Below, in pieces: positions 12,001 to 51,116 of a stretch of 64,000 bases of DNA (within the stretch, counting starts at the first letter, position 1; each line of letters opens with the position of its first letter). Origin of the DNA: Saprospiraceae bacterium (GTDB lineage Bacteria; Bacteroidota; Bacteroidia; Chitinophagales; Saprospiraceae); contig JAHDES010000006.1 in assembly GCA_020628645.1 (NCBI GenBank), forward strand, positions 1 through 64,000, written 5' to 3'. The position numbers and the translations under genes were made by a program. Under the pieces are notes generated by a model. That model ran no database searches. It saw only the letters and a program-made list of their open reading frames with translations, and was not told the DNA's origin.

Positions 12001-15000
12001 CACTATTACCACATGCATCCATTCCATCAAAGGTATAATTCCACACGCCTGTATTTCCACAACTTCCAACAAATTCACTACTAAATGTTGGTGTAAGGGT
12101 GCCATCACAGCCATCTATAATCAATGCTCCATTTTCCCAAGCTTCAATAATACCAGAAGCATTAGGTCCACATTCAATAGTGATGTTATCAGGAGTAACT
12201 AATACAGGTGCTGTTCCATCTGTAACAGTAAATGAAGAACCTCTTGTAGCACTATTACCACATTCATCTGTCACTTGAAATTCAAAAAAGTATTGAGCTG
12301 TAACACCACAAGTTGAAACGATATTTACAATTTCAAAATTTACATTTAAATTTCCTCCACATGCATCTGTAGCTGATAAAGTTGCCGCAATACCTGCCGC
12401 CCAATCATTAGCTAAATCATCTGGGTTGCCAGAAACACATTGTGCCATTCCTGGATTTATTGGATCTATAACTGGCGGAGTTAAATCCGTTATATGTACA
12501 TAAGCGACTTCATCAATGCTATTACCACATTCATCTGAAGCTGTAAAGGTATATTCTCTAACTTCAGTTTGTCCACATAAATCATTATTCACCGGTGCTG
12601 ATGCCAGAATAGTAACATCAGTACAAGCATCCACTGCTACCATCCCCCCAAAAGAGGCTAACCAGCCGCTGATACTAGCATCTGCTCCTGCACCACATTC
12701 TACATATAAATCATCTGGCACGTTCATGATAACTGGTTTCTGTGTATCTATGATCCGAATAGTTGCATTATCTGTAGCCATATTTCCGCAATCATCGGAA
12801 ACTGTCCATGTAATAACAAATGGTTCATCATTACAATCTACTGGAGTTGTCAAGAAATTATTGGTAACGGTAAGGTTATCATCACAAGAATCTGATGCTT
12901 GGTAGCTTGCCAACCAATTGTTGATAATTTCTTCGTTATTTTCGTCGCCACACTCTAAGATAAGATTCTCAGGTGCAGTTATTTCTGGATTTGTTGTATC
13001 TTCAATTCGGAATCTTTTCTCTATTCGATTACTTTCATTACCACAATCATCTACTACAAAGAAATTAACATCCAATACAAAAATTCGATCTGCATTATTA
13101 CATCCACCATTGGGGATATTTCCATCTGCAACACTAAAATCATTTTGCCAAGTGAACCCTCCGCAAGCTTCTGTAACATCTGAATCTAAAAGACCTCCAT
13201 TTGTTTCAATCCAAGCTATTAAGTCGTCAAAGTTTGACAAGCTATTACATTCTACTGTTGTTGCAAATGGCGTACTCGTTGAAATAACTGGAGCCGTATT
13301 GTCAATAGTTGTATAAGTTGAAATACAAGAACTACTATTACCCGCAGCATCAGTCACTACAAATTCATAGAAAAGGGTTTCTGTACCTCCACAACTTGAT
13401 TGTGCACCTATCAGCGTAGCTGTAATATCTAAATCATTTTCATCATCACAATTATCGGTTGCTGATACAGCATTTATTAATTGAGTATTTGTTGGCATTG
13501 TCCCACAAGTTGCATTTGTCACTGGAGTAGGACAAGTTAATTCAGGTGCTTCGCAATCAACTACTGTTACGGTAAATGAACAAGTTGCTGAATTAGCAGG
13601 TGTCAAGTCTTCCGTAATTGTATACGTAATTGTTGTTGTTCCAATAGGGAAGATCGTTCCATCAGGGACATCTCCAGAAGCATTATTCACATCACCACCT
13701 GTTGGAAAATCTATTGAGTGGGTTGTTGTAAATCCACAATCTTCTACAGCATTGATCAATTCTAATCCTGAACCTGACCATGAGCACGTTCCTGCATCCG
13801 CACAAACATCAAGCAGATTCTGTGGACAAATTACTACTGGATCATCATTATCTATTATTGTAATCGTGAATTCACAGATAGATTGGTTACCACAGTCATC
13901 ATTGAATCTCCAACGAACGGTAGCGGTAGAACCCGCTTCTATTGTAATTTCATCTTGAGTGGCAGCACCAAATGCAAAAACAGTAACACCATCAATTCTA
14001 ATACGTTGATCTATAACTAAATTTCCACCACAGTCATCAACTGCAATTGGTACAGGAAGTTTAACCGTAGCGTCACAATTACTTCCATCTACATTCATGG
14101 TCATGTCTTCAGGACAATTTAAAATTTCTGGTCCTGTTGTATCTTGATTAAAAATTATTAATTGATCACATGTACTTGTATTTCCACAAGCATCTGTAAA
14201 GGTATACGTTCGAGTTATTGTTCTATCTGCTGCGTCTGCACTACAAAAATCTAAATCACTTACTAAAAGATCATCACTACTTGAAACTGTGATCTCGCTA
14301 TTTGATGTACAATTATCACTCACACTTCCTCCTAACGTTTCGATACCCGCTATTGTAACCTCTGGGAAAGGCAACTGGCTATTACAATCTAAACCAGCAG
14401 CTTCGGTAATATCCATAGCACAGCTCGTAATCGCTGGCCCCGTTACATCTCTGTCAAATACAAAATCTTGATCACAAGTACTTGTATTTCCACATTCGTC
14501 TTCAAAAGTATAAGTGCGAGTAATTGTACGATCTGCTGCATCTGCACTACAAAAATCTAAAGCACTTACTCCTCCTGATGGGGCTATACTTGAACTTATC
14601 ATTATATCGCCATCCATTGAACAAACATCGCTTACATCACCACCTGCAGTCTCAAAAGCGGATACACTCGTCACCGCGGCTGGTAAACTGCTAGTACAAT
14701 CTAAACCTGTCGTTACATCCGATAAACAGCTCGTAATCGCTGGCCCCGTTACATCTCTGTCAAATACAAAATCTTGATCACAAGTACTTGTATTTCCACA
14801 TTCGTCTTCAAAAGTATAAGTGCGAGTAATTGTACGATCTGCTGCATCTGCACTACAAAAATCTAAAGCACTTACTCCTCCTGATGGGGCTATACTTGAA
14901 CTTATCATTATATCGCCATCCATTGAACAAACATCGCTTACATCACCACCTGCAGTCTCAAAAGCGGATACACTCGTCACCGCGGCTGGTAAACTGCTAG

Positions 15001-16570
15001 TACAATCTAAACCTGTCGTTACATCCGATAAACAGCTCGTAATCGCTGGCCCCGTTACATCTCTGTCAAATACAAAATCTTGATCACAAGTACTTGTATT
15101 TCCACATTCGTCTTCAAAAGTATAAGTGCGAGTAATTGTACGATCTGCTGCATCTGCACTACAAAAATCTAAAGCACTTACTCCTCCTGATGGGGCTATA
15201 CTTGAACTTATCATTATATCGCCATCCATTGAACAAACATCGCTTACATCACCACCTGCAGTCTCAAAAGCGGATACACTCGTCACCGCGGCTGGTAAAC
15301 TGCTAGTACAATCTAAACCTGTCGTTACATCCGATAAACAGCTCGTAATCGCTGGCCCCGTTACATCTCTGTCAAATACAAAATCTTGATCACAAGTACT
15401 TGTATTTCCACATTCGTCTTCAAAAGTATAAGTGCGAGTAATTGTACGATCTGCTGCATCTGCACTACAAAAATCTAAAGCACTTACTCCTCCTGATGGG
15501 GCTATACTTGAACTTATCATTATATCGCCATCCATTGAACAAACATCGCTTACATCACCACCTGCAGTCTCAAAAGCGGATACACTCGTCACCGCGGCTG
15601 GTAAACTGCTAGTACAATCTAAACCTGTCGTTACATCCGATAAACAGCTCGTAATCGCTGGCCCCGTTACATCTGCAATTAAATCAAATGTAAATTCGCA
15701 TTCTTCACTTTCTTCTCCAGTATCTAATGTTTGGTCATTATCTAAGTCATCAAATATAGTTACCGTACGTGTGATGGTTGTATTTACCGTTATATCACAT
15801 ATATCCGTTGGTAAAGTAGGGGCATCACTAACCAACACAACGATGTCACCACATGGCTCATCGCCTACTTCTATCCCATAATCACCATCTGTATTATCTA
15901 CGGTAATATCTCCTGTTCCACTTGTCATTACGGTAGGGTTATCAGGTATATCAGAGAATGTTGTACAGTCAAAATCACCTAAATCTAGGTCTGCTGGGCA
16001 GGTAGCTTCGAACATACAGCCTGGAGCAACACTAAAATTACAAATATTTGGATTGCCTCCAGAAAACCTACAAGCAAAAAGAATTATTTCTACAGCATTT
16101 GGTGGAATTGTAACCGAATACAGAGATCCTGCTCCAAGACCTGTTGTTATGGTTTCACAAGTTGTCACATTGCCTGTTCCGTCATTTGTAGTTATTTGTA
16201 TGTATAATACATCCAAATCACCATTACAACTATTTCCATTACCCACGTTTCCAGAGATTACATTGCCTTCTACAAATGAACTTGGAAATGTAGTCGCATT
16301 TACTATAAACGGTTCACAATTATTAGTTCCAGTATTACAAGAACCTGAAGTTATCTGCCCCCAACTTTCCACCGAGAAGGTAGATAATACTATGATAAGT
16401 ACTACCGATAGGAGGCTGGGACAAAGCGACCGTATGGTATTTTGTGAAGGAAGTGTCATCCAAGGACAACATCGTTCTAAAAAATGTTTATGTATACGTT
16501 TTTTCATGAGATTAAGATGTTTACTCTTAGTAAATGTTGTAAGATTATAATGTTGTAAAGCTGATTTCAT
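1..16570 (-). CDS. Giant secreted HYR-like repeat surface protein, C-terminus beyond window edge
   Basis: One frame stays open from ATG 16570 to base 1 (5,523 complete codons, no stop); frame phase at both ends agrees. A second in-frame ATG lies at 16507. I chose 16570 because of its A-rich upstream (AAAAGAA then ATAAA), but 16507 is possible. The N-terminus has a long basic stretch, then a hydrophobic signal-like segment (SLLSVVLIIVLSTFSVESWG). The body is Cys-rich HYR/hyalin-like modules of about 80-100 residues, repeating motifs such as FTATDDCGN, TTPPVFVNCP and LECDG..AWL. Exceptions are a PEP-CTERM-protein-like module near residues 2545-2700 and a P-domain-like module near 5030-5150. Such proteins in Bacteroidota are usually T9SS-exported adhesins (SprB-type), but the sorting domain would lie outside the window. 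It diverges from the hybrid regulator at 18741. The exact function is inference. Confidence 0.9.
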   Translation of the reverse strand, partial: MKSALQHYNLTTFTKSKHLNLMKKRIHKHFLERCCPWMTLPSQNTIRSLCPSLLSVVLIIVLSTFSVESWGQITSGSCNTGTNNCEPFIVNATTFPSSFVEGNVISGNVGNGNSCNGDLDVLYIQITTNDGTGNVTTCETITTGLGAGSLYSVTIPPNAVEIILFACRFSGGNPNICNFSVAPGCMFEATCPADLDLGDFDCTTFSDIPDNPTVMTSGTGDITVDNTDGDYGIEVGDEPCGDIVVLVSDAPTLPTDICDITVNTTITRTVTIFDDLDNDQTLDTGEESEECEFTFDLIADVTGPAITSCLSDVTTGLDCTSSLPAAVTSVSAFETAGGDVSDVCSMDGDIMISSSIAPSGGVSALDFCSADAADRTITRTYTFEDECGNTSTCDQDFVFDRDVTGPAITSCLSDVTTGLDCTSSLPAAVTSVSAFETAGGDVSDVCSMDGDIMISSSIAPSGGVSALDFCSADAADRTITRTYTFEDECGNTSTCDQDFVFDRDVTGPAITSCLSDVTTGLDCTSSLPAAVTSVSAFETAGGDVSDVCSMDGDIMISSSIAPSGGVSALDFCSADAADRTITRTYTFEDECGNTSTCDQDFVFDRDVTGPAITSCLSDVTTGLDCTSSLPAAVTSVSAFETAGGDVSDVCSMDGDIMISSSIAPSGGVSALDFCSADAADRTITRTYTFEDECGNTSTCDQDFVFDRDVTGPAITSCAMDITEAAGLDCNSQLPFPEVTIAGIETLGGSVSDNCTSNSEITVSSSDDLLVSDLDFCSADAADRTITRTYTFTDACGNTSTCDQLIIFNQDTTGPEILNCPEDMTMNVDGSNCDATVKLPVPIAVDDCGGNLVIDQRIRIDGVTVFAFGAATQDEITIEAGSTATVRWRFNDDCGNQSICEFTITIIDNDDPVVICPQNLLDVCADAGTCSWSGSGLELINAVEDCGFTTTHSIDFPTGGDVNNASGDVPDGTIFPIGTTTITYTITEDLTPANSATCSFTVTVVDCEAPELTCPTPVTNATCGTMPTNTQLINAVSATDNCDDENDLDITATLIGAQSSCGGTETLFYEFVVTDAAGNSSSCISTYTTIDNTAPVISTSTPFATTVECNSLSNFDDLIAWIETNGGLLDSDVTEACGGFTWQNDFSVADGNIPNGGCNNADRIFVLDVNFFVVDDCGNESNRIEKRFRIEDTTNPEITAPENLILECGDENNEEIINNWLASYQASDSCDDNLTVTNNFLTTPVDCNDEPFVITWTVSDDCGNMATDNATIRIIDTQKPVIMNVPDDLYVECGAGADASISGWLASFGGMVAVDACTDVTILASAPVNNDLCGQTEVREYTFTASDECGNSIDEVAYVHITDLTPPVIDPINPGMAQCVSGNPDDLANDWAAGIAATLSATDACGGNLNVNFEIVNIVSTCGVTAQYFFEFQVTDECGNSATRGSSFTVTDGTAPVLVTPDNITIECGPNASGIIEAWENGALIIDGCDGTLTPTFSSEFVGSCGNTGVWNYTFDGMDACGNSATDVSRTVTITDTQKPVIMIPPLDLYLECGSSTLVLDIQTWLNDAGGMVAVDNCGNVDIVPSAPDVISLCGNTEIREYTFTATDECGNSIDEVAYLHIIDSTTPTFDVATDPGPIECDVADPYTWAASAISNIVESCGTTTSSFVLQSANFSCEDEGVYTFLFTVSDECGNETTQTGTYTVSDDTPPTVTAPANLMVSCDDNIDILVADWLLEASVSDNCSSAGEIAISNDFTNLPAACGGTVTVTWTATDVCGNSSMDSADIIISDDTTPPVFVNCPSDMTVAIDVDNCTSNVIYSTPVAEDCNGITSVVLTGGIASGMPFPLGNTTIQFTATDACNNTSLCEFDITVIDSQNPSLQCPSNDVVVCNTAGLCAWSSDETIHPITGDNCTGLTIEYSVSGALIVPQTAWDASIVDVFPKGTSVVSYFLEDAAGNMQTCSFNVIVEDCEDPTFTCPSPQTVECDGLGNTTDLATWLATSLNEMDNCTDNLVANTPILVNTISACGGGLTFVYMFSVTDCGDNTVSCMSSFTIEDTTMPSIDVAATNLTLECDGTTQADDILAWLNANGNASASDDCSTVTWSNDFSALSDACGATGTTTVVFTATDACGNSITTSADITISDNVAPVLTCPANITLECANTNNDAIVSTWLASASATDACGTVTVTNNYTALPTSCLTGSNEVTVTFTVAGNCDGEVVTCDRTITIKDNLLPIVICQDIEVTLDATGMYTIVPADIDGGSYDQCSGDDITLELICEAGGTPTTSCTFDCNDVGVNMVTLVVTDACGNSVTCEAEVTVINNVGDYELALDVPEICLPAAASLLDFSNYLTITDQDGNEIDPNNLPGTYNGVWSIEGFDGTGTAGTIDPATGVYTPGDGSGFVIIRFTLSQPTADCDITVEDVFELRQPVTGMASCACSTDPRIRTVEITGIGGGLAPYTISVDGGTLDSPYDGTATSATVTLYDSEYTYDITITDARGCEIILTGNCPYADPVFVGDQGPVCAGDAPYMIYIDGVQCADGAVGPQATFNNEADFLAAAGGGLTMESFETIPANTQNNIVTADFSITGDFTVEDSPGAGRFATDGVQYLDVDPDVDLKWTFNTPINTFGLNATDTNEPAFGNGFLTFTNDVGQSFVITVSGAADPQFWGVINAPMSFTMVTLNMSSDEDFYGIDEVYYGNSISCMTSTSYDIEQIKDACGDPITPVAATIGFTITSDGMIIVDPGAFIDNAILTGTYQIIATIDLGDGCEEVVTTTIQIDPTFDASFAVTSPLCEDENAIVLAADDDFENLPCSDRDETSLSVWTYNDPSTGAVITLPLVGDGTGDAIFNPSTLGAGTYTITHTIGYPSCETTSTAIIVVEPAVSAELADVHLECVVAPSGNISLDALFTVNTTPGGTFTAGTGFPASGAMIDGNTLTYTAAGCYPVTYTVTSIDGATSGACFATATAFVYISEKPQPSFDIQNEVCLSDADAAQTFTPNVSSPMYSIAAVGAWTIEDNVTNATATIDATTGTVTLTPTGGVVSGTYTITYTETITTPVCNGVGSQMCSESIDIVVVVMDGTAQDASFTISSQDLCPGATVTLDPATDGGQFTGPVTFTPATGIPTAGGTVTFAVPTNCEDVVITYTLNTANGCTAAESATVFADRINPTFSTAPMNMIVECDGMGNTAALTAWLASNAGAVAMDNCNTTITNSLVNTISGCGSTSEAVYMFTATDDCGNSVSALASFIIEDTTMPTLTAPTDLTIACGDDIASAVTAWLDDYIVSDNCSSLIDINISNDFTVIPDLCGGSVTVTWTATDACGNSNTDDATINVTPDTTPPIFVNCPADMTIGTDVDQCDAYVVYSTPIAEDCNGIASVVLDAGIASGMIFPLGDTDITFIATDNCGNSSECSFTITVEDTDDPVILCPSNDVVKCNDTGVCTWTSDQDIAPTLAIENCPNFTVIYEITNPDGSIVTSTSLGDTDGNAAGYIFDLGTSTLCYTIMDANGNPISTCCFDVLVEDCEAPSITCPMDLVVECDGMGNTLDLSTWLATVSASDNCSLPTDISITSDVWNTISACGGGSTITYIFTATDAAGNTSTCLANFTIEDTTNPSIDTPASNETVECDGAGNANDLQAWLANNGGAVASDICSNLSWSNNYGGTNVLSDLCGATGAVTVTFTATDDCGNSAATAATFTIEDTTDPVWSIPPTDLTLECNGSNDPYGAIAAWLTANGNGVAIDGCSEVTYSNDFTALSDDCGATGSALVTFTATDDCSNTSTASATVTIVDNLAPIVLCQDIEVTLDATGMYTIVPADIDAGSYDLCSGDDITIELICETGGIPTTSCTFDCNDVGVNMVTLVVTDACGNSVTCEAEVTVINNVGDYELALDVPEICLPAAASLLDFSNYLTITDQDGNEIDPNNLPGTYNGVWSIEGFDGTGTAGTIDPATGVYTPGDGSGFVIIRFTLSQPTADCDITVEDVFELRQPLVFNPGECMCDALPGDRIVVFGTITDGLAPYTVQINGGTNALDADGNGEYIVATDGGDAGTLFINDGETNWSVSIVDARGCEIFVSGQCDPLLDTPYWIGGNSPACFTDGTFDLELSNDEYDVQIGDISITKLANSAIDAGNCENHEAFNAAVDFTDVFVIDATVDHITVQPENLIGDDYRYAGTYLITLTIPPMESTECQPVIVEQEITLYPSFDACFEMPLEICGNSDEIRIDVNEFNPGYDNLTPDLLCRDLDEMSVWSLVAPDGTIIGTGTNGILLQEGDAGITGMMDGDVVLDPAVLYANHGIGIYTINHEMGIDICKTSCTVTFEIIEYPRIAASTPMPIVCQSNDLMLKVDTIFAGAWCAHNDLTPRYQWQWTLNGVAVSPILSSNDPVSCDIFTIAAADLPGAPLAAGVYTFTVTVIDCKGCLETVDVDVAINDDPVADPEVTNAIYCQSNKGMGTAPVKNTQYGSPVLTVDCSAACGNIIAPTGVPIPTPSANWYDVPTGGTPLFDADNDMDGVFTDDLDGDPHTFNPVAAGLVDPNVPGVYTFYVECVCVPDMKCVSSRVPVTITILDCAPEEHECTYLLVLKDTGADGWEGASIDVSINEDTPTNYKLTPQDCDLLIIPISTNDGGTIDLTYWNGADEDENGWMLIDALGNMAIDDNGNPVNYSSYPPANQTISVKLDCPKNCVETIDYNLVITLGTSPMDMSWELYDGADDIIDIIGAGDYDGLAPGSTVVTTVALNSCEDYTFIAYDGLENGWSGGTWSIQGTDPDRGIPVLDNNGNPTGFFEIVGGPGTFTFEKVTGFTIPCKPEDCPDDLVLTTTNTTDCELVGFVHPTPPTPFVCYPNCGHAEPGPVTVVSYPSIGVFQASVNTVVDLPVGPNLVVFMTTYTDGQIVRCSSIVNVVTDANPSLTCNDNVIISLPAPFTDTDDCTIVVSPDDVLEDQMPCDAQYVVTVFDLNGIAIGNSVGPDQAGQTLIYHVNHIGSDNYCWGTLMVEDKYDPIIECQDYEVACTHPEVMNEDYEHTETYAANAGDVPVNIAGNLGSDAEVSVSVGCAPLGEIIKDVQFNVEHTHSRPKDVLVTLTAPNGISVSDRLDDIDEDIFDVFDNIAFVDLSGTWDIYFEDTNGFNDDGDVGKGKVNGVELTITAGFPKLRSVIDCTYDGDLILLNEMFVETDCDQSEWLGAKIIRTWQAIDPFGNSATCTQTVGLKAPMMDQIQLPSEVHIECSGQDPASITEIEAGTIGFDCFELTANQHGLCDISYTYQDVVLPSCGDGYKIIRTWSIVNWCSGTTITHEQTIKVEDTEGPTIDLSNIVVDAANDCATGDVYLSPAVVDDCSDIYQVKATYTVGGGVYNSNGTLVIVDITTGAPLEGLPFGITQVVVEATDNCGNTSTSTIDVEVEDTAAPIAVCDDELHVSLGSDGSAQLTAADVDEGSYDNCGIASLQVRRVDGCLDTTAWSNVVPFECCDVNQLVTVELLVTDNAGNTNVCWKEVLVEDAIAPVITAPADKTITCDDPAVHSPFGEP
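4604..5032 (-). repeat. 429-bp internal duplication, copy B (identical to 9284-9712)
   Basis: This is the partner of 9284-9712 and encodes residues of about 3847-3989. The surrounding modules also correspond between the two regions: for example the TTPPIFVNCPADMTIGTDVD block near 6.5 kb matches a TTPPVFVNCPSDMTVAIDVD block near 11.1 kb. The 429 bp therefore look like the recently homogenised core of a much longer, older super-repeat. Confidence 0.95.
9284..9712 (-). repeat. 429-bp internal duplication, copy A (identical to 4604-5032)
   Basis: Line-by-line comparison shows 429 identical bases at an offset of exactly 4,680 bp (1,560 codons). It encodes residues of about 2287-2429 of the giant protein, including ELALDVPEICLPAASSLLDF. 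Beyond both edges the two copies stay homologous but diverge. Confidence 0.95.
14420..15674 (-). repeat. Perfect 306-bp tandem array (about 4.1 copies) inside the giant gene
   Basis: Four consecutive units of 306 bp (102 codons, frame-preserving) are identical in the bases read, and the identity ends at 14420 and 15674. They code residues of about 299-717 of the giant protein; each unit has the motif DRDVTGPAITSC, two further Cys positions and FEDECGNTSTCDQ. A diverged fifth unit lies at about 14160-14420, with CDQLIIFNQDTTGPEI at its C-terminal side. Complete identity suggests recent unequal exchange or conversion, so copy number may vary or may be mis-assembled. Confidence 0.95.
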
Positions 16571-42970: not shown

Positions 42971-43135
42971 TTATTCTTTCCTTCCAGGGCATCGCTTACA
43001 ACGTTTTCCTTTCTTAAATTTCCGACAGCATTTTTTTTTCAATTTTTTTCCTTCGACAATAGGCAGGGCAAAAGGTAGTACGATGTCGTGTGTACCAGGT
43101 TGATAGTTCTTTTTGTCGGTGATGGAAAATTGCAT
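42971..43135 (-). CDS. 54-aa basic Cys-rich small protein
   Basis: The frame from ATG 43135 reads MQFSITDKKNYQPGTHDIVL, then FALPIVEGKKLKKKCCRKF and KKGKRCKRCPGRKE before TAA 42971-42973. The C-terminal half is strongly basic with a CC-x7-C-x2-C pattern that could bind metal or nucleic acid. Protein-like codon use, its place in a minus-strand run behind the zinc-ribbon protein (127 bp gap), and a terminator exactly at its stop support a real gene. The function is not known. Confidence 0.6.
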   Translation of the reverse strand: MQFSITDKKNYQPGTHDIVLPFALPIVEGKKLKKKCCRKFKKGKRCKRCPGRKE

Positions 43136-43261
43136 CTTTTCTTTATTTAGACTAAATCTAAACGAAGATAAGTAAAATATTAGTATTTGTAGGAATACGA
43201 TAAGGTATATTTTTAGAAATTTAGCTAAGATGAATCAATGAAATGGAGAATAGAAAAATTC

Positions 43262-44011
43262 CTAATCTTCTTCTGGTACAACTATATCTTGAATGCCCAA
43301 ATGCCGCTCGATTTCTTGTTCTAGGAATTTTGCTTTAGATACAGAATTAACGGAACACAATCGAATGTGTTTATGCCCTTGTCCTTGATCTACAATCATT
43401 TTAATATCCCAATACCCCACATCTTTTCTTTTTTTGACATAGAGTTGATGAATATCTTGGATAGGATAGCTTTTATCTTTTTTGAGTTTGTTCGGACGCC
43501 ATTGTATGTTTAAATGTTGGCGATCTATGTTTAAAAATATTTTATGTTTACTACGCCATATAAAGTACAAGGCAGTCAGTAGCATTGGGATGCCAAAAAA
43601 TAAAAATGCATAAATATTAAATCCTTCCTCTATCGTAATTGCAAGAACGGGAAAAAAAATAAGCGCGAAAAATGATCCGATAATCCACTCAAACCAAACC
43701 AATGGTTGATCAAAACTGATATCTAATTCATTTTTGTAGTAAAATAATTCGATACCTTCGGGTCGTAGAATTTCTTGTTTGATTTTTTGACTGACTTGGG
43801 TAAAACTACTAATGTCTTGTTGGAAAGGAAAAACGATATGACAAGTACCACATTTAGCAATTTTGTCATTAATGTTTAAATTGTCAGAATGAACATGAGT
43901 ATCACAAGAAGGGCAGCAAATCTTCGTAAAAGGAATTTCTTTTTTAGGGGACAAATAGTCTAATTCCAAAAAAGATTCTATAGGCTTTTTATATTCTTCT
44001 AGTGGTTCCAT
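43262..44011 (-). CDS. Zinc-ribbon membrane protein of unknown function
   Basis: The 249-aa protein has a zinc ribbon near residues 30-60 (CCPSCDTH and KCGTCHIVF), two membrane segments in the middle (VWFEWIIGSFFALIFFPVLA, IYAFLFFGIPMLLTALYFIW) and a C-terminal globular part with a PH-like strand pattern (IFLNIDRQHLNIQWRP, YWDIKMIVDQG). I chose ATG 44011, not 44035, because the 5' leader TTTCAAACAAATG is shared with the glycosyltransferase gene at 50010, where it precedes the real start. The function is not known. Confidence 0.75.
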   Translation of the reverse strand: MEPLEEYKKPIESFLELDYLSPKKEIPFTKICCPSCDTHVHSDNLNINDKIAKCGTCHIVFPFQQDISSFTQVSQKIKQEILRPEGIELFYYKNELDISFDQPLVWFEWIIGSFFALIFFPVLAITIEEGFNIYAFLFFGIPMLLTALYFIWRSKHKIFLNIDRQHLNIQWRPNKLKKDKSYPIQDIHQLYVKKRKDVGYWDIKMIVDQGQGHKHIRLCSVNSVSKAKFLEQEIERHLGIQDIVVPEED

Positions 44012-44100
44012 TTGTTTGAAATATTTGGTAGACAAGTGAATTTACAAAATTCTAAAGAATTTTGTGTGCATAGATGGATTTGATGCACTTATATCCTAAA
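44012..44100 (-). promoter_or_regulatory. Conserved leader element with ACAAAATTC hairpin (copy 1)
   Basis: Read on the minus strand, this leader ends TTTCAAACAA directly before ATG 44011 and contains hairpin ACAAAATTC-TTTA-GAATTTTGT (44044-44065), preceded by GGATATAAGTG. The same order with about three quarters identical bases precedes the gene at 50010. It is a shared cis element or a dispersed repeat. Confidence 0.6.
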
Positions 44101-44173
44101 ATACAAAGCAACTTTTGCCTAAAGGAGTTAAAATCGTACTTGAAACGTAAATTCCCACATTTGAACTTACACT

Positions 44174-45415
44174 TTACAAGCCCTCATCTTTTTTAATACC
44201 TTTAATTCGCTTCCATAAAATTCCAAAACGATCACCTGCATCATTGGGAATATCGCGGGTTTCATACCCCATCAATTCGCCATTTTCTTCTATCAATTGA
44301 AAACGAAAAACGAAGGAGGTATCTTCTTCAATATCCAAATTATCCGTTCCAAAGCGTAAATCATTGAGATAAAGGGTGTCATTTTCTTTAGAGACGCTAT
44401 AATATCCTTTAGAAAACCATTTTAAGGTTTTGACTGAACGGTCTTCTTGATGTCCATCTAGCCAATGATGATTTTTAGGAAATACATTTATTTTTTGCAA
44501 TTTGGGTTCTTCATCCAATAAAGAATAAAAGCCTTGATAATAAGCAGAATCGCCTTCTGCCACACCATTCCAAAGAATATTATTAAAAATAGTAGGCGTA
44601 GTCATATAGCGATGATAAGCAATGTTTTCAGCAGCAAAAGAAGCTTCAAAAACTTTATTAACCTTCATTTTATTTGTTACGGACCACACTAAATAAGCAG
44701 AACTAATCAATATCCCCGCCCAATTCACATATTTTCTAGCTTTCGTTCCTCTTGATAAAATTCTAGCTATTACTAAACAGACGAGAAAAGGCACAGTATA
44801 CAATGGATCAGCGACTGAAATATTATTAAATGCGACGCGATAATCAGAGAAAGGTTGGAAAAGTTGTGTTCCATAGGTGGTACAAGAATCCAAGAGTGGA
44901 TGTGTGAAAATAGCCCAGAAGAACACCCATGCCCATTCTTTCCAAGTAATAGATTTCACTTGATCACCAGGATCTTTTTTATAAAAATTAAACCAATAAT
45001 GCACCCCCATTCCAAGCAAAATAATCAAACTAATCAGAGTGGTAGGAAAATGTATTTTTCCACTACTGGCATAGGGAATGGCATTCACACCAAGAGCAAT
45101 TAGGCTCAAAAAGGCGATCCATAATGCCATCATTAAGAAGCGATAGGTTTTATTTTTGTACAAATCGCTTTGATAAAACCGATAGACCAAAAAACCAAAC
45201 AATAGGGGAGCAGTAAAGGCAAAAAAGAAAGAGTGGCTGATACCTCGATGAAAAGCAAGTGCTCCCATATCATCCATGAAAAAATTGCCAATGATATCAA
45301 GATCAGGAATAGTACCGCCTATTGCGCCATACAACATGGCGCGATTTCCTGCTTTTTTCCCAAGTGCTACTTCACCTACAGCCGCACCCAACACAATCTG
45401 CGTAATGGAATCCAT
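44174..45415 (-). CDS. Metal-dependent membrane hydrolase (DUF457/YdjM type)
   Basis: The 413-aa protein begins MDSITQIVLGAAVGEVALG and carries conserved TIPDLDII and HRGISHSFFFAF, the metal-ligand and signature motifs of the LexA-regulated YdjM/DUF457 inner-membrane hydrolase family, plus THPLLDSCTTYGTQLF. There are several membrane segments up to about residue 250, then a C-terminal soluble domain of about 150 residues. The reaction in this family is not well defined. A TACTTTTG box lies 57 bp upstream. Confidence 0.85.
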   Translation of the reverse strand: MDSITQIVLGAAVGEVALGKKAGNRAMLYGAIGGTIPDLDIIGNFFMDDMGALAFHRGISHSFFFAFTAPLLFGFLVYRFYQSDLYKNKTYRFLMMALWIAFLSLIALGVNAIPYASSGKIHFPTTLISLIILLGMGVHYWFNFYKKDPGDQVKSITWKEWAWVFFWAIFTHPLLDSCTTYGTQLFQPFSDYRVAFNNISVADPLYTVPFLVCLVIARILSRGTKARKYVNWAGILISSAYLVWSVTNKMKVNKVFEASFAAENIAYHRYMTTPTIFNNILWNGVAEGDSAYYQGFYSLLDEEPKLQKINVFPKNHHWLDGHQEDRSVKTLKWFSKGYYSVSKENDTLYLNDLRFGTDNLDIEEDTSFVFRFQLIEENGELMGYETRDIPNDAGDRFGILWKRIKGIKKDEGL

Positions 45416-45471
45416 TTATTTGGTAGAATTTATCAAAAATTATATAACCCATCTAAAGATGTAAAGTTGTG

Positions 45472-45479
45472 CAAAAGTA
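45472..45479 (-). promoter_or_regulatory. Candidate -7 box TACTTTTG for the DUF457-type gene
   Basis: The minus strand reads TACTTTTGC; the expected start site leaves a leader of about 50 nt before ATG 45415. The -33 element is unclear. Confidence 0.4.
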
Positions 45480-45553
45480 AAAAATCTAAAGATTGGAGAT
45501 AATTTCTCTACAATTTATTTAGCTTCGTTTTATATTAAAATAACTAAACCTGA

Positions 45554-46660
45554 ATGATAAAAAATTACAAAGTCATCGGCTTAATGTCGGGCAGTTCATT
45601 GGATGGACTAGATATTGCTTATGTGGAATTTGAGTTAGACCAAACCAATAAAAAAAATCCAATTTATCAATGGCAATTAATACAAGCAGAAACAGCTCCT
45701 TTAACTGAACAATGGGTAGCGAGACTAGCTCACCTACCCAAGCAATCTGCACTTAATTTTGCTAAAACACATACGTATTTTGCCCATTATATGGCGGAAT
45801 TAGTGAATAGTTTTATAAAAAAGCACCAAATAAAACCAGATTTTATTGCTTCTCATGGACATACCATTTTTCATGATCCTGATAGAAGATTTACTACGCA
45901 AATTGGCGATGGAGCAGCTTTAGCTACGTTGACTCAAACGGATGTGTTTTGTGATTTTCGCAGCTCAGATATTGCGATTGATGGAGAAGGAACACCGCTA
46001 GCTCCTATTGCAGATAAATTATTATTTGAGGGCTATGATTTTTATCTCAATTTAGGCGGAATTGCGAATATTTCCTGCAATGTGAATGAAAAATTTATTG
46101 CTTTTGATATTGCTGCTGCCAATCAAGTTTTTAATGCGTTGGCAAATACGATTGGATTGCCGTATGATTATAAAGGACAACTGGCACAAAAGGGGCAAAT
46201 AAATGAAGCCTTACTAAAAACGTTAAATGAGCATCCGTACTTTCAAAAAGACTATCCCAAATCGTTGGATAATCAACAAGTGGTCAATTCTTTTATCATT
46301 CCCGTTTTAAAATGGGAAGCAAATCTAGAAGATAAGCTACATACTTTTGCAGAGCATCTTGCGCAACAATTGTCTTTTGCGATTGATAAAATTGTGCAAA
46401 AAGAAGCATTTCATAAAAAACAATATAAATTGTTCATCACAGGAGGAGGTGCGTTTAATGATTTTTTGGTGAATAAGTTTAAAGAAAAACTACCCAAAAT
46501 AGACCTAATCATTCCAGATGTATCCATTATTGAGTATAAAGAAGCCATTTTGATGGCCTTAATGGGCGTGTTACGAAAAGAAGAAATCGCTAATTGTTTA
46601 TCTTCTGTTACAGGAGCAAGAAGAGATACTGTTGGAGGAGCGCATTATCTAGGGAAGTAA
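45554..46660 (+). CDS. anmK: Anhydro-N-acetylmuramic acid kinase
   Basis: The 368-aa protein has the expected family length. The N-terminus GLMSGSSLDGLDIAYVEFE, the HGHTIFHDP motif, QIGDGAALA, LGGIANISCN and ITGGGAFNDFLV are hallmark phosphate/sugar-binding loops of AnmK in the ASKHA kinase fold. It opens and phosphorylates anhydro-MurNAc to MurNAc-6-phosphate during cell-wall recycling. The ATG at 45554 directly precedes the conserved part. It is convergent with the VOC gene with 1 bp between. Confidence 0.95.
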   Translation: MIKNYKVIGLMSGSSLDGLDIAYVEFELDQTNKKNPIYQWQLIQAETAPLTEQWVARLAHLPKQSALNFAKTHTYFAHYMAELVNSFIKKHQIKPDFIASHGHTIFHDPDRRFTTQIGDGAALATLTQTDVFCDFRSSDIAIDGEGTPLAPIADKLLFEGYDFYLNLGGIANISCNVNEKFIAFDIAAANQVFNALANTIGLPYDYKGQLAQKGQINEALLKTLNEHPYFQKDYPKSLDNQQVVNSFIIPVLKWEANLEDKLHTFAEHLAQQLSFAIDKIVQKEAFHKKQYKLFITGGGAFNDFLVNKFKEKLPKIDLIIPDVSIIEYKEAILMALMGVLRKEEIANCLSSVTGARRDTVGGAHYLGK

Positions 46661-46661
46661 A

Positions 46662-47066
46662 TTATTTTTGATATGGAGTGGTTACCTCTAAGCGATTATT
46701 TTCTGGATCGAGGGTTTCAAATTCATAATATCCATCTCCTGTTTTGCGTGGCCCTCTTAGAATGGGGAAGCCTGCCGCTTTGAGTTGATTCGCTTTTTCA
46801 TCAACCGCTTGCATAGAATCGACGCCAAAAGCGAGATGAATAATACCTAAATGTTGTAACTCAACAGTATCATTTTGATTTTCGGGGATACTAGGTTTTT
46901 GCATTAATTCTAAACGTGCACCAGATTGAAAGCTTAAAAAATAAGACTGAAATTGAGTTTTTTTATTGGTATACTTTTCATTAGGAACAGCATCAAAATA
47001 CTGGCAATAATAGTTTTTCAAACCTTCTAAATCATTTGTCCAAATGGCAACATGTTCTAAAATCAT
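46662..47066 (-). CDS. VOC family (glyoxalase/bleomycin resistance-like) protein
   Basis: The 134-aa single-domain protein has the VOC pattern: LEHVAIWTNDLEGLKNYYCQ, FQSGARLELMQKP, HLGIIHLAFGVDSM, DGYYEFETLDPENNRLEVT. The probable metal ligands are His4, Glu and His in the beta strands and the Glu of RLEVT. Substrate unknown; it may be lactoylglutathione lyase-like. A TACTTTTG box lies 24 bp upstream, giving a very short leader. Confidence 0.85.
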   Translation of the reverse strand: MILEHVAIWTNDLEGLKNYYCQYFDAVPNEKYTNKKTQFQSYFLSFQSGARLELMQKPSIPENQNDTVELQHLGIIHLAFGVDSMQAVDEKANQLKAAGFPILRGPRKTGDGYYEFETLDPENNRLEVTTPYQK

Positions 47067-47089
47067 AATAGAAAAATGTAATTTTAAAT

Positions 47090-47097
47090 CAAAAGTA
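47090..47097 (-). promoter_or_regulatory. Candidate -7 box TACTTTTG for the VOC gene
   Basis: The minus strand reads TACTTTTG, 24 bp upstream of ATG 47066. A TTTTG lies about 10 nt upstream rather than at the normal distance. Confidence 0.35.
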
Positions 47098-47133
47098 AGT
47101 AGGCGGACAAAATTACTTGTATGAAAATAACTG

Positions 47134-47190
47134 CCCTCATAAAAATCATAAATAATTGATGGTAAGAAGATTATGTTGATTTTTTGAGGG
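47134..47190. terminator. Imperfect inverted repeat between VOC and CAT-like genes
   Basis: CCCTCATAAAAATCA (47134-47148) pairs with TGATTTTTTGAGGG (47177-47190) with one bulge. It lies downstream of the CAT-like gene and may end its transcription; the loop is long (28 nt). Confidence 0.35.
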
Positions 47191-47248
47191 ATTACAAGGT
47201 ATTTTTCATACTAATTTTTCTGCCGATAAACTTATCCGTATAAACGGG

Positions 47249-47887
47249 CTATAAAAACTGCTCAAATGAATTTGCCAGCTCTTGAAATTCTTGAAAATAC
47301 TTCCCCATATGCCCTCCATCGACTACAGCATGATGTGCCTGTACGGCTAACGGCATTTTAATTGTACCATTTTCTTCAAAATATTTTCCCCAAGTAATTC
47401 GAGGAACAGAATCAATTGCAGGGCAATGCATAGCATGTTGTAAACTAGTAAATGAAACCCAAGGAATGGTAGATAAAAATAGAAAATCATCACGCCCTTC
47501 TTCATCTTCCATGGAGGGATTCGTTTTCATATTATTAATTTGTGCTATTGCAGCTTTGGCAAAAGAAGTATAATTTGCAACATAATCTACATAACAAAAA
47601 CTGAAAACATCTGTTCCTTCAGTCAAAACAGAAAACGAAGGATGAACACTGTTATGTTCTACTACTTTCCCCTCGCGAATACGATATCGAAAAGCTGAAA
47701 TTGAATTGGCTACCGCACTTATGAGATAAACAATGGTAGGCGTAAAGGACAAATTATCCTTTTTTATCGTTCTAAGAAGAGCACTTATATCTACATTTGA
47801 ACATAAATTAAAATGTGGTTGACTCATTCGATTAAAAAAATCAAAATGACGTTGACGATGTGGGTTGGTAAACTTAATCTCTCTCAT
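47249..47887 (-). CDS. Chloramphenicol acetyltransferase-like (CatA family) protein
   Basis: The protein is 212 aa from ATG 47887 (MREIKFTN); ATG 47908 only adds seven residues. The CAT fold is recognisable through HFDFFNRMSQPHFNLCSNVD, the Ser-containing LSTIPWVSFTSL and the C-terminal catalytic HHAVVDGGHMG (family consensus HHAVCDGFH). Clinical-type CAT enzymes acetylate chloramphenicol with acetyl-CoA; chromosomal homologues in Bacteroidota often have unknown substrates. Resistance is not shown by sequence alone. The 427 bp upstream hold no feature I could identify. Confidence 0.85.
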   Translation of the reverse strand: MREIKFTNPHRQRHFDFFNRMSQPHFNLCSNVDISALLRTIKKDNLSFTPTIVYLISAVANSISAFRYRIREGKVVEHNSVHPSFSVLTEGTDVFSFCYVDYVANYTSFAKAAIAQINNMKTNPSMEDEEGRDDFLFLSTIPWVSFTSLQHAMHCPAIDSVPRITWGKYFEENGTIKMPLAVQAHHAVVDGGHMGKYFQEFQELANSFEQFL

Positions 47888-47908
47888 AGAACCAAGAATT
47901 ACTTGCAA

Positions 47909-48334
47909 GTAAAAGACTTTAACAAAAGCGAAGATACTATTTTCAAGAATAAGCGTATCAGCGACTTTTATTTATAAGTTTTTATTTTAATATTTGTATT
48001 CGATTTAGAGTTTGTTTAAAAAAATGATTTTCAGTTGATGTAAATTTAAACATACTCCTAGAAGTATCCATAAACCACTACCTCAGTCACGAGAACAAAC
48101 TTTATTCGTGCCTAATTACTCAAATAACCTACTGTAACTAAAATCTACATTAAAACACTAGAGTTAAATTTACGCCGCCAATTCCAGTTCTGATAAGATG
48201 AATTACCAAAAAACAAGCAATCTATAATTGAGAAAATTTGATTATTAGATTTTTATGGTATAAACTAAAACATAAAACCCAATTAAAGGGTATAATGAAA
48301 GAGTTTCTATTAATTTGAGAGAAGCTAACGTTAT
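47909..48334. other. Intergenic region, no feature recognised
   Basis: AT-rich sequence between the divergent CAT-like and DUF2304 genes. No clear promoter box, RNA or repeat was seen. Confidence 0.5.
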
Positions 48335-48742
48335 ATGCAGTTTGAAATTTATCAATGGCTAGTACCACTAATCGGGATATTTTACATTTCCCGAACCATC
48401 TACCAGTACACGCAACACAGGCGTAGTGCTTTTGGAACTGCTATTTGGATATTTTTTTGGCTGGCTATTATGTTATTGGCCATTATTCCAAATGCTGTAT
48501 CTAATAAATTGGCACTTCTTCTGGGCTTTAAAAGTAATGTAACAGCTATTATTTTTGTGGCTTTAGGACTCTTATTTTTGTTTGTATTTTATCTTTCTTC
48601 CACAGTAGAACGTCTAGAAGGTCAAATTACCGAATTAGTACGTAAAATTGCTTTAGAGGAGATTGAAAAAGAAATGAATAAAACACCTAGTCTTCAAAAC
48701 AAACGAAAAGGCAAAACTCCCAAAAAGCAGCGCAGTGCATGA
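48335..48742 (+). CDS. DUF2304 family small membrane protein
   Basis: The 135-aa protein has three membrane segments (WLVPLIGIFYISRTIY, IWIFFWLAIMLLAIIPNAVS, NVTAIIFVALGLLFLFVFYL), then a helix (VERLEGQITELVRKIALEEI) and a basic tail, matching DUF2304. In many genomes this family sits next to glycosyltransferases in surface-polysaccharide loci, as here: its stop overlaps the start of the GT4 gene by 4 bp. It may be a membrane partner of the pathway (inference). Confidence 0.85.
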   Translation: MQFEIYQWLVPLIGIFYISRTIYQYTQHRRSAFGTAIWIFFWLAIMLLAIIPNAVSNKLALLLGFKSNVTAIIFVALGLLFLFVFYLSSTVERLEGQITELVRKIALEEIEKEMNKTPSLQNKRKGKTPKKQRSA

Positions 48743-49830
48743 ATATTCTTTTCGTACTCGAAAATTATTATCCCAATATTGGGGGGGTAGAGACTTTATT
48801 CAAAACCTTAGTGGAACGATTAGCTGCTCAAGGACATCAGGTCACAGTACTCACTACACAATTAGAAAAAGATCATCCAAGAAGAGAAGATCATAAAAAT
48901 CTCCTTATTTTAAGATACCCATTTTGGAATCGGTACTTTTTTACTTTTTTTGCTTTTTTTCCAATCGTAAAAATTATAAGACGCGCGGATATAGTACATA
49001 CCACCTCTTACAATGCTGCTTTACCAGCTTTCTTTGCAGCCTTTTTTTTCCAAAAGAAAATTATCGTAACTTTTCACGAAGTCTGGAGTGATTTATGGTT
49101 TCGTCTACCTTTTATGAGTGGGGCAGGACGATATTTACATTGGTTGTTTGAACAGTTTCTGCTTCGTCTGCCTTTTCATCGGTTTGTAGCCGTCTCCGAA
49201 AATACTGCCAACGCATTAGTAAAGAATGGAGTGCGAAAAAGTCGAATTGTAGTCAATTACAACGGAATTAATTATACTGAATTTAAACCTAGAAAAGAAC
49301 TCCCTCAAAATGACAAATTTACGTATACTTTTTTTGGTAGATTGGGGGCTTCTAAAGGTTTAAACATCATAATAGATGCAGCCGCCATAATGAAACGTCA
49401 ATATCCCAATACGATTTTTCAATTTATTATACCAACTAGTCCAACCCATTTTTTTAAGGAAATCATGGATTTATTAGAAGAAAAAGACTTATTAGCTTAC
49501 ACTCAACTAGCACATGATTTACCTTTTGAAGAATTGAAAGCAAGAATAAAAGCGTCTGATTGTGTTGTCATTCCTTCGTATAGTGAAGGCTTTTGCTATG
49601 CAGCAGTTGAAACGATGGCAATGAATGTTCCTATTATTTCATCGGATCAAGCAGCACTAAAAGAAGTCATCTCAGGGAAATTTATTAAAATGAAAACACA
49701 TGATGCAAATGGATTAGTGGTAGCACTAGAAAAAGCCATGCAAGGACAATGGGAACAAACGCCTCTACGAAAATATGAACTTTCAGAAACGGTACAACGC
49801 TACCAAGCGATTTATGAACAACTCCTTTAA
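48739..49830 (+). CDS. GT4-family glycosyltransferase
   Basis: The 363-aa GT-B enzyme opens with FVLENYYPNIGGVETLFKTL (acceptor-side Gly-rich loop). The C-terminal donor domain has FGRLGASKGLNIIIDAA and the SYSEGFCYAAVETMAM E-x7-E motif used by retaining GT4 enzymes to hold the nucleotide sugar. A short hydrophobic/aromatic stretch (FFTFFAFFPIVKII) may attach it to the membrane. Donor and acceptor are unknown; it probably builds a surface glycan in the cytoplasm. It is co-translated with the DUF2304 gene. Confidence 0.9.
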   Translation: MNILFVLENYYPNIGGVETLFKTLVERLAAQGHQVTVLTTQLEKDHPRREDHKNLLILRYPFWNRYFFTFFAFFPIVKIIRRADIVHTTSYNAALPAFFAAFFFQKKIIVTFHEVWSDLWFRLPFMSGAGRYLHWLFEQFLLRLPFHRFVAVSENTANALVKNGVRKSRIVVNYNGINYTEFKPRKELPQNDKFTYTFFGRLGASKGLNIIIDAAAIMKRQYPNTIFQFIIPTSPTHFFKEIMDLLEEKDLLAYTQLAHDLPFEELKARIKASDCVVIPSYSEGFCYAAVETMAMNVPIISSDQAALKEVISGKFIKMKTHDANGLVVALEKAMQGQWEQTPLRKYELSETVQRYQAIYEQLL

Positions 49831-49907
49831 TGCATGGGATGAACAGCATATTTATGAATCTTAAATTAACACATAAGGGAATGATTAAATAAAGTGCATA
49901 AGAAGAT

Positions 49908-50009
49908 AGAAAATAATTTGCATTTTCGGGTATAAGTGTATTCCATGCCCTTATCCACACAAAATTCCTTAGAATTTTGTAAATCCACTTATTCACAAAT
50001 TTCAAACAA
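49908..50009 (+). promoter_or_regulatory. Conserved leader element with ACAAAATTC hairpin (copy 2)
   Basis: This carries TTTGCATTTTCGGGTATAAG, then hairpin ACAAAATTC-CTTA-GAATTTTGT (49959-49980), then AAATCCACTT and TTTCAAACAA right before ATG 50010. Same orientation and order relative to the start codon as copy 1 at 44012-44100, although the downstream genes are unrelated. This suggests a shared regulatory leader or an inserted repeat. Confidence 0.6.
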
Positions 50010-51116
50010 ATGAAACGGATTGCCATACTTGCAGACCCTTTGGATACGCAATCTGCGGGAATACATGTTTATACCAGAGCGTTGATTCGTGCTTTGACTA
50101 CCATAGATCGACAAAATGAATACCTTATTATAAGAGCATGTGCAAAAAATGAATTTCCAAATACAGAAGAAATTGTAGTACCTATTCGTTCCTTTCCTCC
50201 TCTTCATCTTCGTTGGCGACAATTCACGAGCATCCCTTCATTATTGCGAAAAGCGAAGGTAGACTTGGTGATTGAACCAGCTCACTTTGGACCATTTAAT
50301 TTACCCTCAACGATCAAGCGTATAACAGTAATACATGATTTGACGCCCATACTATTTCCTGCTTATCATGGACGATTAAGTCATTGGATGCATCGTTTTT
50401 TGTTACCTTCTATATTAAGGAATGCAGATCATATCATTACAAATTCTAATTGTACTACAAAAGATATAGCACGACTTTATCCGTTTACGAATGAAAAAAT
50501 GACGGCTATTCCTTTGGGAAAGCAATTGTTATTTCAGCCTCAAAATGATGCTCTTATTTTAGAAAAATATGGACTTCAATCTCCTTATTTTCTATTTGTT
50601 GGAACATTAGAACCCAGAAAAAATTTACAAACCCTTCTAAAAGCATTTGAGCAATTCAAAGTACAAAATCCTAGTTTGCCTCATCAACTTGTTTTAGTAG
50701 GACAGCAAGGTTGGAAAAATAATGCTCTTTCTGAACAACTACTACAATCACCATTTAAAAAAGAGATCGTAAAATTGGGTTTTGTTCCTCTAGAAGATTT
50801 ACCAGCGCTTTATTCTCAGGCTACAGCATTTGTTTATCCTTCCCATTATGAAGGTTTTGGATTGCCCGTATTGGAGGCGATGGCTTGCGGGGCGGTGGTG
50901 ATAAGTTCTAATACTTCGAGCTTGCCAGAAGTAGGAGGGAAGGCGGCTTTATATTTTTCACCAGAAGATACGGAAGCATTAGTAATATTACTTGAAAGAG
51001 TTAGTCAAGAATCGGAGATGGTAAATCAGTTAAGAAAGCGGTCGCTTCAACAAGCGGGTTTATTTAGTTGGGAAAAAATGGCGAGAACATTTTTAGAAGT
51101 AATCAATACATTTTAA
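50010..51116 (+). CDS. GT4-family glycosyltransferase
   Basis: The 368-aa GT-B enzyme has an N-terminal acceptor domain (RIAILADPLDTQSAGIHVYT, TVIHDLTPILFP, HIITNSNCTTKDI) and a donor domain with FVGTLEPRKNLQTLLKAF, VYPSHYEGFGLPVLEAMACG (E-x7-E) and SSLPEVGG. It resembles mannosyl/rhamnosyl transferases of O-antigen or capsule loci; the sugar cannot be assigned. It has its own leader (49908-50009), separate from the GT gene upstream. Its last 4 bp overlap the convergent GT2 gene. Confidence 0.9.
   Translation: MKRIAILADPLDTQSAGIHVYTRALIRALTTIDRQNEYLIIRACAKNEFPNTEEIVVPIRSFPPLHLRWRQFTSIPSLLRKAKVDLVIEPAHFGPFNLPSTIKRITVIHDLTPILFPAYHGRLSHWMHRFLLPSILRNADHIITNSNCTTKDIARLYPFTNEKMTAIPLGKQLLFQPQNDALILEKYGLQSPYFLFVGTLEPRKNLQTLLKAFEQFKVQNPSLPHQLVLVGQQGWKNNALSEQLLQSPFKKEIVKLGFVPLEDLPALYSQATAFVYPSHYEGFGLPVLEAMACGAVVISSNTSSLPEVGGKAALYFSPEDTEALVILLERVSQESEMVNQLRKRSLQQAGLFSWEKMARTFLEVINTF

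Follow-up and report, generated by a model that had tools for sequence, protein, structure and literature searches.

Hairpin leaders joined to start codons as probable copies of a small mobile element in a Saprospiraceae bacterium

Two leaders and their copies in the genome

Two unrelated genes in the stretch of bacterial DNA analysed here (the "window", 64,000 nt of contig JAHDES010000006.1) begin directly behind the same hairpin-bearing leader, and this study concerns what that leader is and how it came to precede them both. Leader A (44009 to 44102, minus strand) ends in TTTCAAACAA, fused to the ATG of a gene for a protein of 249 amino acids (43262 to 44011, minus strand) whose zinc-ribbon match is weak (PF13719, under its cut-off). 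It has no left end that we can recognise, and its hairpin, ACAAAATTC-TTTA-GAATTTTGT, lies at 44044 to 44065. Leader B (49831 to 50014, plus strand) carries the hairpin ACAAAATTC-CTTA-GAATTTTGT at 49959 to 49980 and ends in ATGAA (50010 to 50014), the beginning of a gene for a GT4-type glycosyltransferase of 368 amino acids (50010 to 51116, plus strand). A genome search with leader A aligned the two at 79% over about 100 nt (E = 1.4e-17). Their regions were also recovered as an inverted pair (83 nt, 78%), and with up to three mismatches allowed the window has exactly two matches to the 32-nt motif ACAAAATTCNTTAGAATTTTGTAAATYCACTT; 100 shuffles have none.

An earlier note on this DNA had placed a hairpin leader of about 100 bp before both genes. 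The positions (44011, minus; 50010, plus), the identical orientation to the ATG and the list of blocks common to A and B are as it gave them; the boundaries were drawn too short, as the repeat in B begins at about 49831. Because that start directly abuts the stop codon of an upstream glycosyltransferase-like gene (48739 to 49830, plus strand; named from sequence alone), leader B fills the entire intergenic region. Its left-end ATGAA is degenerate, and the segment at 49847 to 49887 matches positions 14-53 of the left-end model R1, introduced below, with 39.4 bits. The hairpin of leader B lies between two DnaA-box-like TTATNCACA sequences, which are present in some other type I copies as well.

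With leader A as the query, eight places in the genome were found at E < 1e-6, A itself included. A ninth copy of this kind, which we call type I, was added by the hairpin pattern and further comparison (C85:68.5k), while three others are partial or recombined (C75, C7:56k and C85:41k). The hairpin pattern in reverse had no match in the genome. In reading the copies, we saw GTAG 5' of the first hairpin in some of them. Behind two type I copies (C40 and C21:96k) stands a tandem neighbour, a unit that has the same kind of right end and a different middle, and it was through these that a larger, modular family was recognised. Its units are about 100-190 nt long. They begin ATGAA|ACGAGCATGA (the left end written more fully as ATGAA|ACGAGCATGATATTTATTAATCATAA..ACACAAGGNATGATTAA) and they end TTTAAACANATGAA; between these common ends lie several different middles, named I (that of A and B), II, III and V, plus a nested hairpin. 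The left-end model, R1, found 61 matches in the genome at E <= 10, 31 of them below 0.01; the 17 rows used to build it match by construction. Short GC-rich hairpin repeats (for example CCCGCCTGTCAT..GGACAGG and CCTGTCTACTCGG..CCAGGTAGA) are nested in units at L037, L041, L045, L046, L047, L112 and L299. Short upstream frames also occur, ATG AAA CGA GCA TGA at the left end and longer ones in types II and III, though they are not universal.

R1 matches 29 of 298 genomes of the family, this one included, in 21 of 112 genera, and matches neither of two genomes of the same genus. The family is probably Saprospiraceae, since the named relatives of the GT4 protein are mostly from Saprospiraceae and other Bacteroidota metagenome-assembled genomes. 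A DNA search of 60 genomes gave four matches: this genome, one relative (G016) and two others with matches shorter than 31 nt. When 30 same-genus loci, covering 12 of 15 downstream genes, were fetched and searched with nhmmer, no unit was found in them.

Filled and empty sites at ATGAA

Better cases than the same-genus loci are found in sister genomes of another genus of the family, g99. A 176-nt unit in G247 (L258) corresponds to an uninterrupted locus with identical flank in G190 (L345), and in the reverse case a 133-nt unit in G190 (L293) corresponds to an empty site in G247 (L347). In both pairs the unit is the sole difference at the junction, and a 99-nt unit (L291) opposite an empty G247 locus (L330) is similar. 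Where the site is empty there is a single ATGAA; where it is filled there are two, and they enclose the hairpin element. Among 20 relative loci that were compared, one is filled too (L346), one has a sequence like a right end (L337), and the other 18 carry no unit within 260 nt, mostly with diverged flanks. At L337 (G247:C441), the ATG is preceded by GAATTTTAAACAC, which is similar to a unit's right end, and the same place is filled in G190 and empty in G101; the sequence is possibly an excision remnant.

Copies were also compared within two unit-rich relatives. Five units in G288 have a mean pairwise identity of 98%, and seven of the eight copies fetched from G166 have a mean of 94% (lowest 89%), while the flanks of these copies average 30-37% identity and reach at most 48%. 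The modular mosaics, among them a type I/III recombinant and the tandem arrays, would suit a history in which upstream regions spread by recombination or duplication together with their genes, transposition not being involved. Flanks that are unrelated between copies, and insertions in sister genomes that are clean at the nucleotide level, make this account extremely improbable. The earlier note's suggestion of a mobile repeat is supported by near-identical copies in unrelated flanks, by clean empty sites and by the 30 same-genus loci that have no unit.

We conclude, with considerable though not complete confidence, that A and B are copies of a mobile element, small (about 100-190 nt) and non-autonomous, which turns into the 5' leader of the gene it joins. 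The filled and empty sites show that units of the family insert directly 3' of an ATGAA, most often that of a start codon. At a gene start, the left ATGAA is then the former start codon and the right ATGAA replaces it, behind the element's own TTTAAACAN, so that the element comes to separate the old upstream region from a gene to which it is unrelated, and the protein is unchanged. Unrelated genes have a hairpin leader in common because the element enters behind ATGAA and brings a replacement start codon at its other end. For a symporter gene and a BFN-domain gene, the left ATGAA of the unit coincides, by eye, with the start codon of relatives. Similar acylase-like genes in two genera (L035 and L255) each have a unit at the start codon, with a different middle in each, which suggests independent hits.

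The positions of the right ends bear directly on this proposal. In this genome 50 array-terminal right ends were read: 47 have the letters ATGAA, and 34 start an open reading frame (ORF) of at least 60 aa; five further places without a recognisable ATG right end (C37, C62, C33, C56:13k and C2:47k) are left out of this count. In relatives, 60 loci were taken, seven of which have no right end (five apparently at a contig end, and two, L254 and L314, with none recognisable) and two of the remaining 53 of which are duplicates. Among the 51 that result, 40 begin an ORF of 60 aa or more, which is either complete or still open where the fetched DNA stops. Since the pattern used for these right ends required ATGA, the ORF counts are evidence and the ATGA itself is not. 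By comparison, the window has 325 ATGAA pentamers, of which 55 begin an ORF of that length, 16 of those 55 having no upstream in-frame ATG, and 10 of the 33 window ORFs of at least 150 aa begin with ATGAA. The earlier note had named an absence of further copies, or copies at random places unrelated to start codons, as results that would speak against it; there are further copies, and most stand at start codons both here and in relatives. Because the other 16 right ends in this genome start no ORF, the idea of a leader bound purely to start codons is weakened.

The target seems to be the pentamer ATGAA and not the start codon as such. Nine sites were rebuilt as empty by a script that joins the flanks, and eight of these are readable; at two of them (L041 and L042), as rebuilt, the ATGAA falls in the final codons of an open frame; one of these frames, 499 codons long, resembles a xylulokinase gene. 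It is these two insertions that point to the pentamer. Start codons would predominate because many genes begin with ATG and a Lys or Asn codon, a place where insertion is tolerated.

Secondary structure and the regulatory alternative

Structure was examined most closely in type II, the commonest type, where 46 units without large nested inserts were available and 34 were aligned after near-identical ones had been dropped. The consensus has 28 pairs, in helices of 18 and 10 pairs, and 16 of the 28 show compensatory changes. Of the cells at these pairs in the alignment, 92.8% do pair, compared with 38-52% when the structure is slid, a lenient control because the structure was derived from the same alignment, and with 82.7% in shuffles; none of 500 shuffles reached any of five measures. 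The left hairpin begins 4 nt inside the junction ATGAA|ACGA, and the four bases 5' of its foot are mostly ACGA; about 7 nt separate the end of the right hairpin from the right ATGAA. No terminal inverted repeats were seen by eye.

Directly 5' of the right hairpin, type II units have a 7-nt segment, CATNTGT, whose pairing partner is the ACANATG of the right end. Its variable base pairs in 25 of 33 distinct units, compared with 15.1 in shuffles (0 of 5000 shuffles reach it); for one unit, L312, this count used a later right end than the alignment did. In the alignment of segment to end, whose rows have common ancestry, the cells paired, the changes on both sides (18 compared with 5.2) and the covariation score all exceed every one of 500 shuffles. 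The subfamily with GTTCCTGAATGTA does not show the pairing.

The type I hairpin, the one seen in A and B, is well conserved across nine copies, and none of its 18 pairs shows a compensatory change among them. As a measure of fold stability, one other type I unit gave z = -3.24, and four type II units folded as DNA gave z = -0.90 to -6.18. In the folds predicted for A and B, the start codon stays unpaired.

A unit inserted at a start codon is expected to lie in the 5' leader, and the type II pairing, which extends across the start codon, would cover the new start codon in the mRNA. One might therefore read the leader, which is structured and usually fused to a start codon in the sense orientation, as a conserved cis-regulatory RNA (a riboswitch, a protein-bound leader or a translational switch) controlling a regulon, as the earlier note had considered. 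We hold this to be very improbable. The genes downstream are unrelated, comprising the GT4 glycosyltransferase, an acetolactate synthase-like thiamine pyrophosphate (TPP) enzyme, an SDF symporter, a BFN nuclease and others named by their sequence only, and there is no sign of a regulon among them. Near-identical copies precede unrelated genes, the same-genus orthologues of 12 of 15 of those genes have no leader, and 16 of 50 right ends here start no ORF. In Rfam, no family reached its gathering score over window positions 43000-51000 or at 11 unit loci. The best match, a weak one on the opposite strand of leader B, was to the small RNA ES003 (E = 0.091, 25.8 bits, compared with a gathering score of 37), and we rejected it. 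With the lack of compensatory change in type I added, the riboswitch or regulon proposal is not supported. Nor is the promoter half of the earlier note's "mobile promoter repeat" supported: in the left flanks of relatives, which the test covered, TAnnTTTG is not clearly enriched (3 of 40, compared with 55 of 2000 shuffled).

Mobilising enzyme and related elements

According to passages of PMC6006769, IS200/IS605 elements in general have a hairpin at either end, a guide that lies 5' of the hairpin foot, and a fixed target beside them. The units, in the features seen in type II, resemble such ends in having two subterminal hairpins, a fixed short target and pairing between the right end and a segment 5' of the right hairpin. 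They differ in that no carrier of TnpA was found, in the long AT-rich left hairpin, in a pairing of 7 nt instead of 4 nt that was shown for type II only, in a target, ATGAA, that is mostly at start codons, and in several exchangeable middles. On the proposed mechanism, the hairpins would serve as recognition sites for a transposase supplied in trans. Whether insertion may proceed by single-strand transposition of the IS200/IS605 type is a question on which we judge the evidence about evenly balanced, and because the enzyme was not found we infer IS200/IS605-like working and assign no membership.

The Y1/RAYT genes of this genome were considered as carriers and rejected, their flanks having no unit ends; one (L063) has a single chance-like 9-mer, ATGAAACGA. 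A further Y1 match (L062) is cut by the contig end, and another (L066) is a Y1-like stretch within a long unrelated frame. L067 (1400-1475, contig C44) has hairpins and TTTAAATTTTAAACATG, a sequence similar to the right end of a unit, ahead of a RAYT-like Y1 transposase gene. In the few hundred bases behind 60 left ends in relatives there is no autonomous Y1 relative, and no such search was made of other genomes. An IS110-type transposase gene lies inside one unit (L215, 6120-7414; contig C2, about 50.1-51.4 kb), in two frames; a copy of TGATTAA stands on each side of it, and the unit's right end is intact before a gene start. This one IS110 type is single-copy here and has no match in G016, G001 or G002. 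As it is present once within a unit and has no match in the unit-bearing G016, we take it to be a passenger and not the carrier.

Several results weigh against the interpretation of the leaders as copies of a mobile element, or against its IS200/IS605-like form. Neither an autonomous copy nor a transposase was found for the units, the eight Y1_Tnp matches of this genome have no unit end in any flank, and genes of the L067 type (the one RAYT type tested) are not associated with units, because they occur in 11 of 29 unit-bearing genomes and in 111 of 298 overall. Leader A lacks a recognisable left end, 16 right ends start no ORF, and the ATGAA repeat is indistinguishable from a 5-bp target duplication. 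In the type II pairing, the base next to the variable one pairs in 23 of 33 units (21.3 shuffled), which is chance-like; neither the count of covarying pairs nor that of pair types stands out from the shuffles (53 and 146 of 500); and the variable-base pair is absent in 8 of the 33. In type I, the 18 pairs without compensatory change count here as well, and the full-length fold of leader B is no better than its shuffles (z = -0.74).

Some observations would suit the same element being moved by a different system that works without inverted repeats, either an IS110-type recombinase with its bridge RNA or a DDE enzyme that makes a 5-bp duplication. The direct repeat is compatible with such a duplication, an IS110-type transposase was found within one unit, and the pairing of an internal segment with the end of the element is like a bridge-RNA donor loop. 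We nevertheless consider this unlikely: the IS110 gene in question occurs once, is split over two frames and has no match in unit-bearing G016, the target is nearly always ATGAA, and no terminal inverted repeats are visible by eye. Slightly less likely still is an undescribed family specialised on start codons, in which an internal guide would recognise ATGAA and pair with the element's own right end, the host start codon would give way to the element's initiation region, and that pairing, by hiding or exposing the new start in the mRNA, would install a translational switch before unrelated genes. Returning to the mobile element as we propose it, effects on expression, from the hairpin leader and the new initiation region, would be side effects, neutral or selected case by case.

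Other known repeats share some of these features. REP palindromes are dispersed extragenic hairpin repeats for which mobilisation by a separate transposase (RAYT) has been proposed, and the Bacteroidetes RAYT subclass 2.6 is flanked by "atypical secondary structures", according to passages of PMC6006769 and PMC3733652. The units, too, are dispersed hairpin repeats outside genes. They are longer (about 100-190 nt, compared with the 21-65 nt stated for REPs), have precise ATGAA junctions that adjoin start codons, and are not associated with the RAYT type of L067. The IS605-type stem loops that stand free or are attached to genes resemble the units but sit at the 3' ends of genes, whereas the units sit at the start codon. 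HEARO elements reportedly have an ATGA-type site. We found no description of the unit family in the open-access titles, abstracts and passages that were searched (including those of PMC9755519, PMC6006769, PMC3733652 and PMC2775950), and one type II copy had no match among phage and plasmid records. The unit is a non-autonomous hairpin-ended element, of a kind otherwise known, whose placement at start codons is unusual.

Most mobile elements either harm the genes they enter or settle in intergenic DNA. Because insertion at the first codons regenerates the start codon, this family may rewrite 5' leaders genome-wide and keep the proteins intact. Sister species supply a natural series in which some genes have the leader and others lack it, and the effect of a mobile leader on expression is therefore directly testable; the mobilising enzyme is likewise a well-defined object of search.

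Elsewhere in the window, a long repetitive region contains other repeats: an exact 300-bp duplication (4604-4903 and 9284-9583) and perfect 306-bp tandem repeats (14420-15637).

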